Shown here piece after piece: positions 1 to 48,821 of a DNA stretch of 64,000 nt (position 1 is the stretch's first letter; each line of letters opens with the position of its first letter). The translations under genes were made by a program, and so were the position numbers. A model generated the notes under the pieces. The model was not told the DNA's origin. It worked only from the letters and a program-made list of their open reading frames with translations, and did no database searches. Source of the stretch: Cyclobacteriaceae bacterium. Lineage in GTDB: Bacteria; Bacteroidota; Bacteroidia; Cytophagales; Cyclobacteriaceae. The DNA lies in NCBI GenBank assembly GCA_016787725.1, contig JAEUTZ010000016.1:62001-126000 (forward strand). The letters run 5' to 3'.

Positions 1-1011
1 AAGATGGGCGAATTGGGATTTATGGGAATGATGGTGGACCCTGTCTACAACGGGGGTGGCATGGATACAGTTTCGTATGCCTTGGCGATGGAGGAGATCT
101 CCAAGGTGGATGCTTCTGCTGCTGTGTGCATGTCGGTAAACAATTCGTTGGTGTGCTGGGGCCTGGAAAAATTTGGAACAGCAGAACAAAAGGAAAAGTA
201 TTTGAAGCGACTGGCTGCCGGAGAGGTTATCGGTGCTTTTTGTTTATCGGAACCCGAAGCCGGTTCGGATGCAACCAGCCAGCGGACAACGGCTGAAGAT
301 AAAGGAGAGTACTACCTGTTAAACGGCACAAAAAACTGGATCACCAATGGGAAAAGTGCCAGTGTTTATCTGGTGATCGCCCAGACCGATGCCACCAAGC
401 GTCACAAAGGAATCAATGCGTTGATCGTAGAACGAGGCATGGAAGGATTTATAGTGGGGAAGAAGGAAGATAAAATGGGGATCCGCGGATCGGATACACA
501 TTCTCTCATGTTTACCGATGTAAAAGTGCCAAAGAAAAATCGTATTGGCGATGATGGTTTTGGTTTCAGTTTTGCGATGACAACCTTAAACGGTGGCCGT
601 ATTGGTATTGCTTCTCAGGCATTAGGGATTGCTGCCGGAGCCTACGAGTTGGCGCTTAACTACTCAAAGGAAAGAAAGGCGTTTGGTAAACACCTGGCCG
701 AGCATCAAGCCATTCAGTTTAAGTTGGCGGACATGGCTACCAAAATTGATGCAGCTCGCCTGTTGGTTTGGCAAGCCGCTTATTTAAAAGATCAAGGGAA
801 GGATTTTGTGAAAGCTGCGGCCATGGCAAAACTTTACGCCTCGCAAATTGCACAGGAAGTAACCACCGAAGCTGTCCAGATTCATGGCGGCTATGGGTAT
901 GTGAAAGAATTTCACGTAGAGCGGCTGATGCGCGATGCGAAAATCACCCAAATTTATGAGGGCACGACAGAGATTCAGAAGATGGTAATCTCCCGCGAAC
1001 TGCTACGTTAG
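1..1011 (+). CDS. Acyl-CoA dehydrogenase, 5' end outside the window
   Basis: Flavoenzyme that introduces the alpha-beta double bond of acyl-CoA in fatty-acid or amino-acid degradation. The reading frame is open from the first base, and 336 residues are present against about 380 for the family, so roughly 45 N-terminal residues lie upstream. The ATG at base 4 is internal. Visible family marks are the FAD/substrate segment CLSEPEAGSDA, the middle-domain WITNG motif, the FGKHLAEHQAIQ helix, and the C-terminal IYEGTTEIQ motif. The Glu of that motif (fragment residue 320) matches the catalytic base of short/medium-chain enzymes. The sequence ends ISRELLR, a normal terminus. Seven bases separate its stop from the convergent downstream gene, and I see no terminator between them. 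The chain-length preference cannot be read from the sequence. Confidence 0.95.
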   Translation, partial: KMGELGFMGMMVDPVYNGGGMDTVSYALAMEEISKVDASAAVCMSVNNSLVCWGLEKFGTAEQKEKYLKRLAAGEVIGAFCLSEPEAGSDATSQRTTAEDKGEYYLLNGTKNWITNGKSASVYLVIAQTDATKRHKGINALIVERGMEGFIVGKKEDKMGIRGSDTHSLMFTDVKVPKKNRIGDDGFGFSFAMTTLNGGRIGIASQALGIAAGAYELALNYSKERKAFGKHLAEHQAIQFKLADMATKIDAARLLVWQAAYLKDQGKDFVKAAAMAKLYASQIAQEVTTEAVQIHGGYGYVKEFHVERLMRDAKITQIYEGTTEIQKMVISRELLR

Positions 1012-46441: not shown

Positions 46442-47185
46442 ATGAAACACGTTATTTTTTTGCTCCTGTTTTTCATAAGTCTGGCAGTTCATGCGCAATC
46501 TGTGCGCGATACAACCGGCCTGAAAAATGGGATCAAGGTCGATCTTACCTCTTATTGGCTATACCGAAATGCCGTAGTGTTTACGTATGAACGGGTTCGT
46601 AACCCGCAGCAATCGTGGGGTATTACAGCCGGAATCCAGCAATTACCGGGTCTCGGAACGTTGGCGGATAATGTAAAAGTGATCCGGGAAACGAAAGCCC
46701 GTGGTCTTAAGTTGGGCGCGGAATACCGATTCTATTTACAGAAAGAAAACAAATTCGAGGCTCCGCATGGCGTTTACATCGGGCCGTACGTGTCCTTTCA
46801 CAATTATGCCAACGACCGAGACATAGAAGTAGACAATAATGGGGTAATTGAAAATGCAACCCTCAGCACCGATCTGAATATCCTGAACATAGGGGTTCAG
46901 TTGGGCTATCAGTTTCTGATCAACAACCGATGGGCCGTTGATCTCGTATTTGTCGGACCTTCTATTTCGAACTATAGTTTCAAGTCAACCATCGAAGGGA
47001 ATTACACCTTCGATCCGGATAACGTCAACAACGAAGTGATTCTGGGTCTCATTGACCGATTTCCCGGTTTTGAAAAATTCTTGAATGAAGGGGAAATTAC
47101 TTCCAAAGGAAAATTAAATCACTGGGGCTATGGGTACCGGTACCAATTGCAGGTAGGGTATTTCTTTGGACGCAAGAAAAAGTAA
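46442..47185 (+). CDS. Secreted outer-membrane-like protein of unknown function
   Basis: 247 residues from the ATG at 46442 (signal peptide MKHVIFLLLFFISLAVHAQ); the frame from 46421 adds seven residues and no motif. Barrel-like features: LTSYWLYRNAVVFTYERV, GVYIGPYVSFHNYAND, WAVDLVFVGPSISNYSF, and a terminal GYRYQLQVGYFFGRKKK. The layout resembles DUF3575-type small barrels. It lies 51 bases after the DUF202 gene and may close the same operon. Confidence 0.68.
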   Translation: MKHVIFLLLFFISLAVHAQSVRDTTGLKNGIKVDLTSYWLYRNAVVFTYERVRNPQQSWGITAGIQQLPGLGTLADNVKVIRETKARGLKLGAEYRFYLQKENKFEAPHGVYIGPYVSFHNYANDRDIEVDNNGVIENATLSTDLNILNIGVQLGYQFLINNRWAVDLVFVGPSISNYSFKSTIEGNYTFDPDNVNNEVILGLIDRFPGFEKFLNEGEITSKGKLNHWGYGYRYQLQVGYFFGRKKK

Positions 47186-47229
47186 CCGTTGACCCGCGAT
47201 CTTAAATACTATTGGGGCTTGCAGGTACT

Positions 47230-47529
47230 GGCCGAGATTTTCGCCTATTTTCCTCACCAGTTTTTTTCCGGCTTCGTGGCAGATGGTGATCGATCCGGTA
47301 CTTTTCTCGGTATTGTACATCACCACCAAAGCCGGACTGGAACGAAACCGGAAAAAGATGTTGGATGGCGGCCAGCCTGCTGGTGGCGCAAGCCATTTTC
47401 AAGGTGTTCAATTTTCCGGTGATCGAGGCTGTCTCCAAACTGCTGAACATTACTTTTTTTACGATCATCGTTGGGTTTCTGATCGCGCAGATTTCTTCTG
47501 CCCGTGTAGTAAGGAGAGAACCACAATAA
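47230..47529 (+). pseudogene. Frameshifted remnant of a potassium-channel family (Ion_trans_2) protein
   Basis: One frame reads LTSFFPASWQMVIDPVLFS and continues VLYITTKAGLERNRKKM. After a one-base shift near 47365 the next frame reads LLVAQAIFKVFNFPVIEAV and continues SKLLNITFFTIIVGFLIAQ to ARVVRREPQ and TAA at 47527-47529. Joined, these give three hydrophobic segments with an LEKNRK-like loop, as in the N-terminal part of bacterial two-TM potassium channel proteins. The pore motif (GYG) and the rest are missing. The frameshift and truncation imply decay. The family call is from memory of the pattern and is moderate only. Confidence 0.5.
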
Positions 47530-47732
47530 AGAAGCCTTTAGACGTTGGTTGGTTAGGGAAATCGTTTCGGGTCGCATGGCTCAGAAGAAAGCCAGTCAAC
47601 TATGGGTAAGCGACATTACTTAAATTCGTATCCATCAGTCTTAGGTTGCTTCCCAGCAGAGCCCTCGTCTGTTTCACTTAACAATTTCAATATCTTAAAC
47701 CGTATTCATTTATTTTTACTGACACAGTTTAT
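47530..47732. other. Non-coding stretch between the channel remnant and the tandem array
   Basis: No ORF with a recognisable family on either strand; AT-rich toward its 3' end. No hairpin or promoter stands out. With the flanking remnant and arrays it forms the 1.08-kb gene-poor interval 47186-48266, the largest in the window. Confidence 0.6.
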
Positions 47733-47754
47733 AGAATAGACCCAGAATAGACCC
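47733..47754. repeat. 11-bp tandem duplication next to the 44-bp array
   Basis: AGAATAGACCC occurs twice head to tail and ends one base before the 44-bp array. Eleven bases is one quarter of the array period. Confidence 0.75.
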
Positions 47755-47755
47755 C

Positions 47756-48107
47756 GGGGTAGTACCTAACACGATACGGGAGAGTACCAACTACGATGCG
47801 GGGTAGTGCCTAACACGATACGGGAGAGTACCAACTACGATGCGGGGTAGTACCTAACATGATGCAGGAGAGTACCAACTACGATGTGGAGTAGTACCTA
47901 ACACGATTCGGGAGAGTACCAACTACGATGCGGGGTAGTGCCTAACACGATGCGGGAGAGTACCTACTACGATGCGGGGTAGTACCTAACACGATACGGG
48001 AGAGTACCAACTACGATGCGGGGTAGTACCTAACTCGATTCGGGAGAGTACCAACTACGATGCGGGGTAGTACCTAACACGATTCGGGAGAGTACCAACT
48101 ACGATGC
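47756..48107. repeat. Tandem array of eight 44-bp units, each two related 22-bp halves
   Basis: The unit start (GGGGTAG or a variant) recurs at 47756, 47800, 47844, 47888, 47932, 47976, 48020 and 48064, exactly 44 bases apart. Each unit holds two 22-bp halves: one with GGGGTAGTACC, the other with GGGAGAGTACC, each ending in an ACGAT motif. The halves match at 16 of 22 positions. A degenerate ninth start follows at 48108. Units differ by a few point changes but never in length. Stop codons occur in every frame on both strands, so it is non-coding. The function is unknown. Confidence 0.95.
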
Positions 48108-48120
48108 AGGAAAGTAGGGA

Positions 48121-48164
48121 ACCCACTCAAGGCAAAAGAGTTAACATACCCTCTCAAGGCAAAA
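48121..48164. repeat. Pair of 17-bp direct repeats, 27-bp spacing
   Basis: ACCCACTCAAGGCAAAA at 48121 and ACCCTCTCAAGGCAAAA at 48148 match at 16 of 17 bases, immediately after the array. No gene is present here. The remainder to 48266 holds only the leader of the DUF4136 gene, with a weak TACCTTCG -7-like element about 35 bases before the ATG. Confidence 0.7.
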
Positions 48165-48266
48165 AACCAGAGATCAGCAAAAGCATTCAGCCACCAGTTC
48201 TTGATTAAATCGCAAAAGACTTTTTAACTACCTTCGAACCATAAAACTTGATAACCCAATCGTTTA

Positions 48267-48821
48267 ATGAGGACTTTACTGGCATTTTTTTTCGGATCTG
48301 TTATTGCCCTGCAGGCACAGTCTGTTAAAACCGACCGCGACACCCAAACGGATTTCACCAAATTCAAAACCTATGCCTGGCTGGCACCGGGCGACAGTGT
48401 ATTGAATCGCGAACGCATCGACAAAGTCTATGGCGGCACCATCACCTACGCGGCTAATCAGGAACTCAAAAGCCGGGGCTTTACCCTCGATGCTGCGAAT
48501 CCGGATGCCATATTTGTCTTTTATACCAGCGTACACGAAATCACCACGTACTCACAAAGTCCTACACTCAGCGTGGGTGTAGGGGTGGCCGGGCCGGGCT
48601 ACTATGTTGGGGGTTCTGCCCCGGTTGCCGGTGGTAAGATTACCGCCACAACGCAGGAAGACGGCACCCTGAAATATGCCATGTACGATACCGAAACCAA
48701 AAAGCAGGTGTGGTGGGGCATGGCGGAAAAAAAATTTAAAATGTCAGACGACATTCAGAAGTTGCTGATGGACAACACCGCCAAAATTTTTGCCAAATAT
48801 CCGGTAAAGAAGAAAAAATAG
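48267..48821 (+). CDS. DUF4136 protein
   Basis: 184-residue exported protein. Signal peptide ends near ALQAQ (residue 18); there is no lipobox Cys, unlike its two paralogues, so it should be soluble in the periplasm. The DUF4136 start TDFTKFKTYAWLAPGD is clear. A Gly/Val-rich segment (SVGVGVAGPGYYVGGSA) lies where the others have Tyr/Trp-rich inserts. It is the third DUF4136 gene of the window, the first gene after the 44-bp array and 24 bases before the GH13 gene. Confidence 0.85.
   Translation: MRTLLAFFFGSVIALQAQSVKTDRDTQTDFTKFKTYAWLAPGDSVLNRERIDKVYGGTITYAANQELKSRGFTLDAANPDAIFVFYTSVHEITTYSQSPTLSVGVGVAGPGYYVGGSAPVAGGKITATTQEDGTLKYAMYDTETKKQVWWGMAEKKFKMSDDIQKLLMDNTAKIFAKYPVKKKK

Follow-up and report, generated by a model that had tools for sequence, protein, structure and literature searches.

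Satellite repeats in bacteria generally serve as typing markers and are regarded as neutral. The nearest published case that we found to the array described here is BrickBuilt from Porphyromonas gingivalis, a minisatellite of 23-nt repeats that lies inside a MITE (PMC4596501). By that account, its arrays stand between a leader and a tail with inverted repeats, the ends resemble those of IS5-family elements, 19 copies are present in ATCC 33277, and a relative, MITEPgRS/464, is built on a 41-nt repeat (PMC4596501). Insertion sequences that choose repeats as targets have also been described: five IS families, IS256 included, are reported to target REP palindromes (PMC1525189), and IS256-family insertions appeared random in one survey (PMC3942029). 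In the open-licence literature, we found no prior report of satellites as IS256 targets, nor any work joining Chryseolinea, genome and tandem repeats.

The array that we followed up lies in a 64-kb window, by which we mean the whole stretch of DNA analysed. Like BrickBuilt as described in its report, it belongs to the Bacteroidota, is intergenic, has no spacers and has a unit of about two or four DNA turns (23 nt in BrickBuilt, 41 nt in MITEPgRS/464), with a repeat sequence private to the species and linked to IS-like inverted repeats. Unlike the BrickBuilt of that report, the array stands outside an IS256-type end, most loci have array sequences of their own and one intact IS is embedded in an array. 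The IS lineage appears to home to an intergenic repeat in the way that REP-targeting IS are described to do (PMC1525189). Unlike REPs, which are palindromic and defined by sequence, its targets are non-palindromic satellites of differing sequences and a common period. The Transposase_mut protein, 24-bp inverted repeats and 8-bp duplication of a copy in genome G069 match the IS256 family and p-MULT 1 as presented in PMC3942029, whereas in the genomes seen here the lineage was non-random, unlike the insertions of that survey. The IS1202-family dif-site hunters, judging from their description (PMC10132070), are comparable in their 1.5-kb length, their ends of 24-26 bp and their position next to a defined structure, but both transposase family and target differ. 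The satellite itself is real and ordinary-looking; its setting is unusual, and what merits further attention is the genus-wide class of shared period and the link to the IS.

The satellite and its locus

The window locus contains the following features:

46442..47185, + strand: upstream outer-membrane protein (OMP) gene (DUF3575; domain scan)
47160..47511, + strand: remaining 5′ part of a potassium-channel gene (2-TM), spread over two frames (matched by the G067 protein in tblastn, E 2.9e-21)
47643..47743, + strand: decayed right IS end, without transposase gene (short BLASTN matches to IS tails of the genus)
47720..47743, + strand: terminal inverted repeat at the right end of an IS256-family element, outer end towards the array (24-mer recurrence; intact G069 element)
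47744..47754, + strand: repeat of the terminal 11 bp of the IS end, lying between that end and the array (TRF period 11 x 2.0; unit table)
47755..48107, no strand: satellite of eight 44-bp units, each of two diverged 22-bp halves, without spacers (TRF, unit table, autocorrelation)
48267..48821, + strand: downstream DUF4136 protein gene, 160 bp past the array (domain scan)

The array gave the only TRF row in the whole 64-kb window (47755-48107, period 44, 8.0 copies, 93% matches, 0% indels, score 615), which confirms the eight 44-bp units without length change reported by the first-pass annotation. Its autocorrelation was 0.93 at lags 44 and 88 and 0.70 at lags 22 and 66, and stayed at 0.19-0.26 at lags 11, 21, 23, 33, 43 and 45. 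The unit table bore out the description of two diverged halves of 22 bp, the first and second being 70.5% identical; among the units, second halves were nearly fixed (98% alike) and first halves variable (90% alike). ACGAT, said to be kept in each half, was present in 14 of the 16 halves, but unit 3 carried ATGAT and unit 7 TCGAT. The suggestion that the sites would lie on the same helix face stands locally but not over the whole array: because 22 bp exceeds two turns (10.5 bp per turn) by 1 bp, they drift by about 1.5 turns across the 16 halves, by simple arithmetic.

Head-to-tail units without spacers, in non-coding DNA, identify the array as a minisatellite and a candidate VNTR. A coding role was rejected, as the first-pass annotation had already argued, owing to the 5-7 stops found in every one of the six frames, and CRISPR was likewise rejected on the unit table, which contained no unique spacers between repeats. 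A REP/BIME or structured RNA was also discarded: on both strands, 100 of 100 shuffles gave folds no poorer than that of the array (z +2.3 and +2.6). Rfam gave two matches between window positions 46500 and 49000, both under the gathering score and neither overlapping the array. By eye, CTCAAGGCAAAA is present twice to the right of the array, at 48127-48138 and 48153-48164, 26 bp apart. A AACCAGAGAYCAGCAA-like, partly heptameric sequence follows both arrays of the source genome (window 48160-48180 and L005 3869-3915; seen by eye and as a 14-bp TRF row).

The left edge of the array, formed by the IS256-type end and its 11-bp copy, and the broken gene at the site had been missed by the first-pass annotation. 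Eleven base pairs separate the array from the decayed element, whose 24-bp end at 47720-47743 reads TGACACAGTTTATAGAATAGACCC, and the two 11-bp copies (47733-47754) together make up a 22-bp unit that keeps the phase of the array. This IS copy has a single end and no visible target duplication, and a search of the source genome (G000) for related transposases gave none at E<=1e-40. We do not count an orfA-like peptide at 47525-47620 as a feature, since neither Pfam nor NCBIfam matched it meaningfully.

The start of the channel remnant overlaps the end of the OMP gene. Its 3′ half is missing in the window, where the IS end and the array occupy its place. The channel gene is intact in G067 (Ion_trans_2, PF07885, E 2.7e-11) and in G030 (83% over 213 aa, without gap or stop), and in both genomes this two-helix potassium-channel gene sits between the OMP gene and the DUF4136 gene with no array, which indicates that the array at the window locus is derived. 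Among the DUF4136 loci fetched (L047-L055, L100-L102), none carried such a satellite beside the gene, TRF finding either nothing or only 7-10-bp units; the channel gene was not found in L049-L051. The five neighbouring proteins scanned in the window (OMP/DUF3575, DUF202, DUF4136, alpha-amylase and SBF family) did not include a replication initiator.

A genus-wide period class of satellites

The source genome (4.21 Mb, 27 contigs) contains a second array of 15 units of 44 bp (C27:237.1-237.8 kb), approximately 69% identical to that of the window. Since each array is internally uniform, each was probably homogenised separately, and the C27 array retains a half-unit of the window type at its left edge, which suggests that the two have shared ancestry. 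BLASTN within this genome found nothing shared between the flanks of the two arrays. Of three genes compared for synteny around the C27 array, only that at L005:4885-5688 was found in nine fetched relatives. To the left of this array lies a weak transposase-like fragment (HTH_28, E 4.7e-5; IS481, E 5e-4), with both matches below the curated cut-offs.

The first-pass annotation had proposed searching relatives for the unit, and the refuting condition that it set came out divided: none of the 62 other genus genomes searched contained the sequence of the unit, but six of them had arrays with units of its length. A 44-position profile run on 63 genomes of the genus returned 23 unit matches at E < 1e-10, all of them in the source genome, the best match elsewhere having an E of 0.017; the filters of this search were stricter and 100 candidates were scored in each genome, so that weak relatives could have escaped it. 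The 62 other genomes (Chryseolinea-like, Cyclobacteriaceae) thus gave no match to the profile. BLASTN covered 58 genomes, namely the source, 35 other genus members and 22 of the order, and none of the 57 others matched at E<=1e-3. An exact 24-letter unit pattern had no match in two contig collections (genome and viral), in which records close to the source may be absent. Phage and plasmid sequences did not match the unit either, and a phage or plasmid origin was rejected on that account. Among the genomes searched, the unit sequence therefore appears to be private to the source species. The three nearest relatives of the DUF4136 neighbour, 74-75% identical, come from two Cyclobacteriaceae MAGs and one Chryseolinea MAG, and the genus is probably Chryseolinea-like.

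Arrays with a unit length of about two turns were found in G062, G012, G069, G028, G026 and G035. The window array belongs to this genus-wide class, in which the unit spans about two helical turns (20-22 bp) and the sequences are mostly unrelated. Units are often AB dimers of 40-44 bp: the dimer lag exceeded the monomer lag by >0.05 in 7 of 14 arrays (window, C27, L159 at 8730, L161, L162, L167 and L169). When units were compared across arrays, p<0.05 was reached by 16 of 231 pairs, several of which came from a single locus or genome, so deep kinship of the arrays is unsupported. A heptamer origin of the 21-bp units was discarded, given that lags 7 and 14 were not clearly above those of column-shuffled units (maximum z 1.9, 14 arrays). 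A 10-11-bp sub-period was not clear in the same number of arrays, the largest z being 2.0, in one array.

The earlier observation that length is conserved while bases drift holds for the window and for other arrays of the genus. Nine arrays cut at their exact period accumulated 339 substitutions relative to the consensus with 0% TRF indels, a count that omits the indel or mixed-period arrays (L180, L174 at 19614, L159 at 8730 and L113 at 1370), the other L159 and L113 arrays, L138 and the two-unit L161. In the open frames over arrays, substitutions had no clear third-position excess, which makes a coding constraint unlikely. Two loci of G012 have the IS end, spacer and array in common, and the alignment of their array parts contains four gaps, of 84, 21, 21 and 21 bp, indicating change by whole units.

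In samples of the genus amounting to 1.66 Mb, we found 10 arrays of at least 100 bp, five of them in the 20-22/40-44 class. The remaining five had periods of 81 and 15-90 (both in long open frames), 127, 152 and 15/30/45. No class array of at least 100 bp was present in the G081 and G024 samples (400 kb each), and no array of 100 bp in the outgroup samples (400 kb). A 400-kb sample of contig C20 of G069, chosen clear of its IS site, contains long arrays of 21, 21, 21 and 20/40 bp together with one of 127 bp (L172, L174, L180), and none of them has an IS end within 2.5 kb. Three of the 21-bp arrays lie in open frames of 150-300 codons, again without a clear third-position excess. In L201 (G081:C1:1220518-1220847), a 152-bp unit is present in two copies, 96% alike, with no open frame through them.

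An IS256 lineage in or beside the arrays

One IS256 lineage lies in or beside arrays of about two turns far more often than expected by chance. IS sites were located with the 246 bp to the left of the window array as query, the last 6 bases of which touch the array, and with a 24-mer pattern of the IS end that takes in no array sequence. Allowing 0-3 mismatches, the 24-mer was present in 7 of the 63 genomes of the genus and occupied 13 places there. L128 and L134 have matching flanks, and one of them is at the end of a contig, so we counted the two as a single site; adding L113 and L114 from BLAST gave 14 sites in 8 genomes. At 11 of these 14 sites, flank periodicity was at least 0.57 at lags 20-22/41-44, with best-flank scores of 0.60-0.97; L109, L135 and L114 had no such periodicity in their flanks. 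TRF itself called an array at 10 of the 11 linked sites, L137 being counted from its periodicity score. L136 was counted by its left flank (0.73), its right score (0.57) coming mostly from beyond the array.

Of 6000 random 350-bp windows from the genus, 0.42% had a periodicity of at least 0.5, as did 2.5% of 483 windows without a long open frame, and the best of four adjacent random windows reached 0.57 in 20 of 3000 cases. When the window was excluded, the binomial probability of 10 linked sites out of 13 was 2e-14 at the 2.5% background and 2e-8 at 10%, the latter allowing for the several flanks tried. In these figures the sites are not fully independent, as the G012 pair is one duplicated unit, and the 2.5% background corrects in part for the tendency of both IS copies and arrays to favour non-coding DNA. 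Seven control loci that have at most a tail segment in common with the lineage (L106, L107, L108, L110, L112, L115 and L117) carried no TRF array at score 40. Seven more distant IS256 copies (L251-L257, 49-57% identical), some with flanks cut by contig ends, had no array of 21-22-bp units.

Two of these distant copies adjoin arrays of other kinds: L253 (G073:C74) lies between 26-fold and 6-fold heptamer arrays, and L255 (G012:C4) lies 66 bp from a 26-fold AGTT array. L251, L252, L254, L256 and L257 had no such short-unit array adjoining them, the left flank of L254 being missing on its contig. Arrays also exist apart from the element: the C27 array of the source genome and four stretches of G069 C20 have no IS end within 2.5 kb.

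The intact element of G069 encodes a Transposase_mut protein of 403-408 aa (PF00872, E 2.8e-101; L136), which is flanked on both sides by variants of the 24-bp end. It lies in contig C20 within a 21/42-bp array, with about five units to the left and one to the right (17 of 21 matches), and is bordered by an 8-bp target duplication, CAGAGTTA. The G069 copy thus combines the Transposase_mut protein, terminal inverted repeats and 8-9-bp target duplication of the IS256 family, and we assign the element beside the window array to this family on the likeness of its end. A second two-ended copy, L129, had no target duplication by eye, so that a duplication was visible in one insertion only. The array was outside the element at 10 of the 11 linked sites. 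At G069:C10, it was joined to the IS from inside, running into it and overlapping its sequence by 9 bp. At L132, a 7-bp duplication of the IS end was noted by sight.

A 3′ tail segment of approximately 55-68 bp is 76-81% alike between L106, L108, L110 and L117 on one side and L113, L133 and L136 on the other. It is common to these IS256 ends and to an IS that differs from them elsewhere; in L117, the two frames of that other IS resemble IS3 by eye.

Origin of the array and competing readings

Starting from what was observed directly, namely the array and its diverged counterpart on C27, the neighbouring IS end, the disrupted gene, the class of shared period and the association with the IS, we lean towards reading the array as an intergenic, non-coding minisatellite of the genus-wide period class, acquired with an IS256-family insertion in a channel gene. 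The array would have arisen or arrived in the source lineage together with the insertion into the potassium-channel gene, gain and loss of whole units by recombination or slippage would keep it uniform, and the IS would prefer arrays as targets rather than make them. The window array probably has no function of its own. Regarding the direction of cause, the intact G069 element, with array units on both sides and an 8-bp duplication, implies that there the array came first. The window array is derived, so an IS hitting a pre-existing array cannot simply hold at that locus. The evidence there suggests either that array and IS moved together, as in the G012 pair, or that the array grew at the IS end, for which the in-phase 11-bp duplication and the G069:C10 junction are the basis. 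Our preferred though unproven reading is target preference with co-movement; the overlap at G069:C10 tells against it, as it suits an array born at an IS junction. The single visible target duplication and the lack of 21-22-bp-unit arrays at the seven distant IS256 copies also weigh against our reading, as does the absence of indels in diverged arrays, which is more length constancy than we ourselves expected for neutral DNA.

Such a birth, in which slippage at the junction, or transposition that aborts or involves one end only, would expand a short stretch into a satellite, is distinctly unlikely. It would account for the channel gene of G067 and G030 being free of an array that is found here only with the IS end, for the duplicated last 11 bp in phase just before the array, and for the L132 duplication and G069:C10 overlap. 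However, the intact IS of G069:C20 entered an array that was already present, some arrays have no IS end, and by eye most units contain no IS sequence. A minisatellite forming the interior of a non-autonomous transposon with inverted-repeat ends, in the manner of BrickBuilt, is very unlikely, even though the published system (PMC4596501) is described from the same phylum with a 23-nt unit, no spacers, an intergenic location and IS-like ends. Because the array stands outside the IS256 end, this IS could not carry it as its own interior, and at 10 of the 11 sites the ends would move the wrong side. The window locus contained one IS256-type end only, facing away from the array, and three variants of this end, scanned with up to 5 mismatches on both strands of the fetched loci, never enclosed an array. 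A leader and tail common to copies, a BrickBuilt trait, did not emerge from the flank searches of the source genome, which missed the flanks of the C27 array; the two arrays of that genome have no common flank by BLASTN.

We consider it rather unlikely that the array is architectural or protein-binding DNA, in which a nucleoid or regulatory protein reads sites about two turns apart and selection keeps the spacing while the bases drift. The 339 substitutions without TRF indels in nine arrays, the recurrence of 20-22 bp and of AB dimers (7 of 14) among mostly unrelated sequences and the improbability of a coding constraint all agree with it. Against it, the species have no motif in common (16 of 231 unit pairs at p<0.05), no 10-11-bp sub-period stood out (largest z 2.0, one array), relatives lack an array at the same locus and the source arrays have a period of 22 rather than 21 bp, so that the phase drifts. 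Iterons are often 19-22 bp long, and short tandem repeats are prone to assembly error. Even so, an assembly artefact or plasmid-like iterons are hardly credible sources of the array: the source genome holds a diverged second array with its own uniform units, and the flanks are unique, the window lying within a 402-kb contig of a 4.2-Mb genome. The resemblance to iterons raised in the first-pass annotation found no support, the five scanned neighbours having no initiator and the site consisting of a degraded channel gene and an IS remnant.

A wider proposal, possible though doubtful, is that the IS256 lineage recognises satellites by their two-turn periodicity and not by sequence, and that the genus maintains period-locked satellites of free sequence under a constraint on spacing. 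If true, bacterial transposons would have a structural target in tandem repeats of 21-22 bp. The mostly unrelated arrays with their near-two-turn period, the whole-unit length change in one alignable pair and the single transposon lineage adjoining them, from a family reported to insert at random, make it possible to test whether the periodicity of repeats is read by a transposase of bacteria or by some host protein that the transposase follows.
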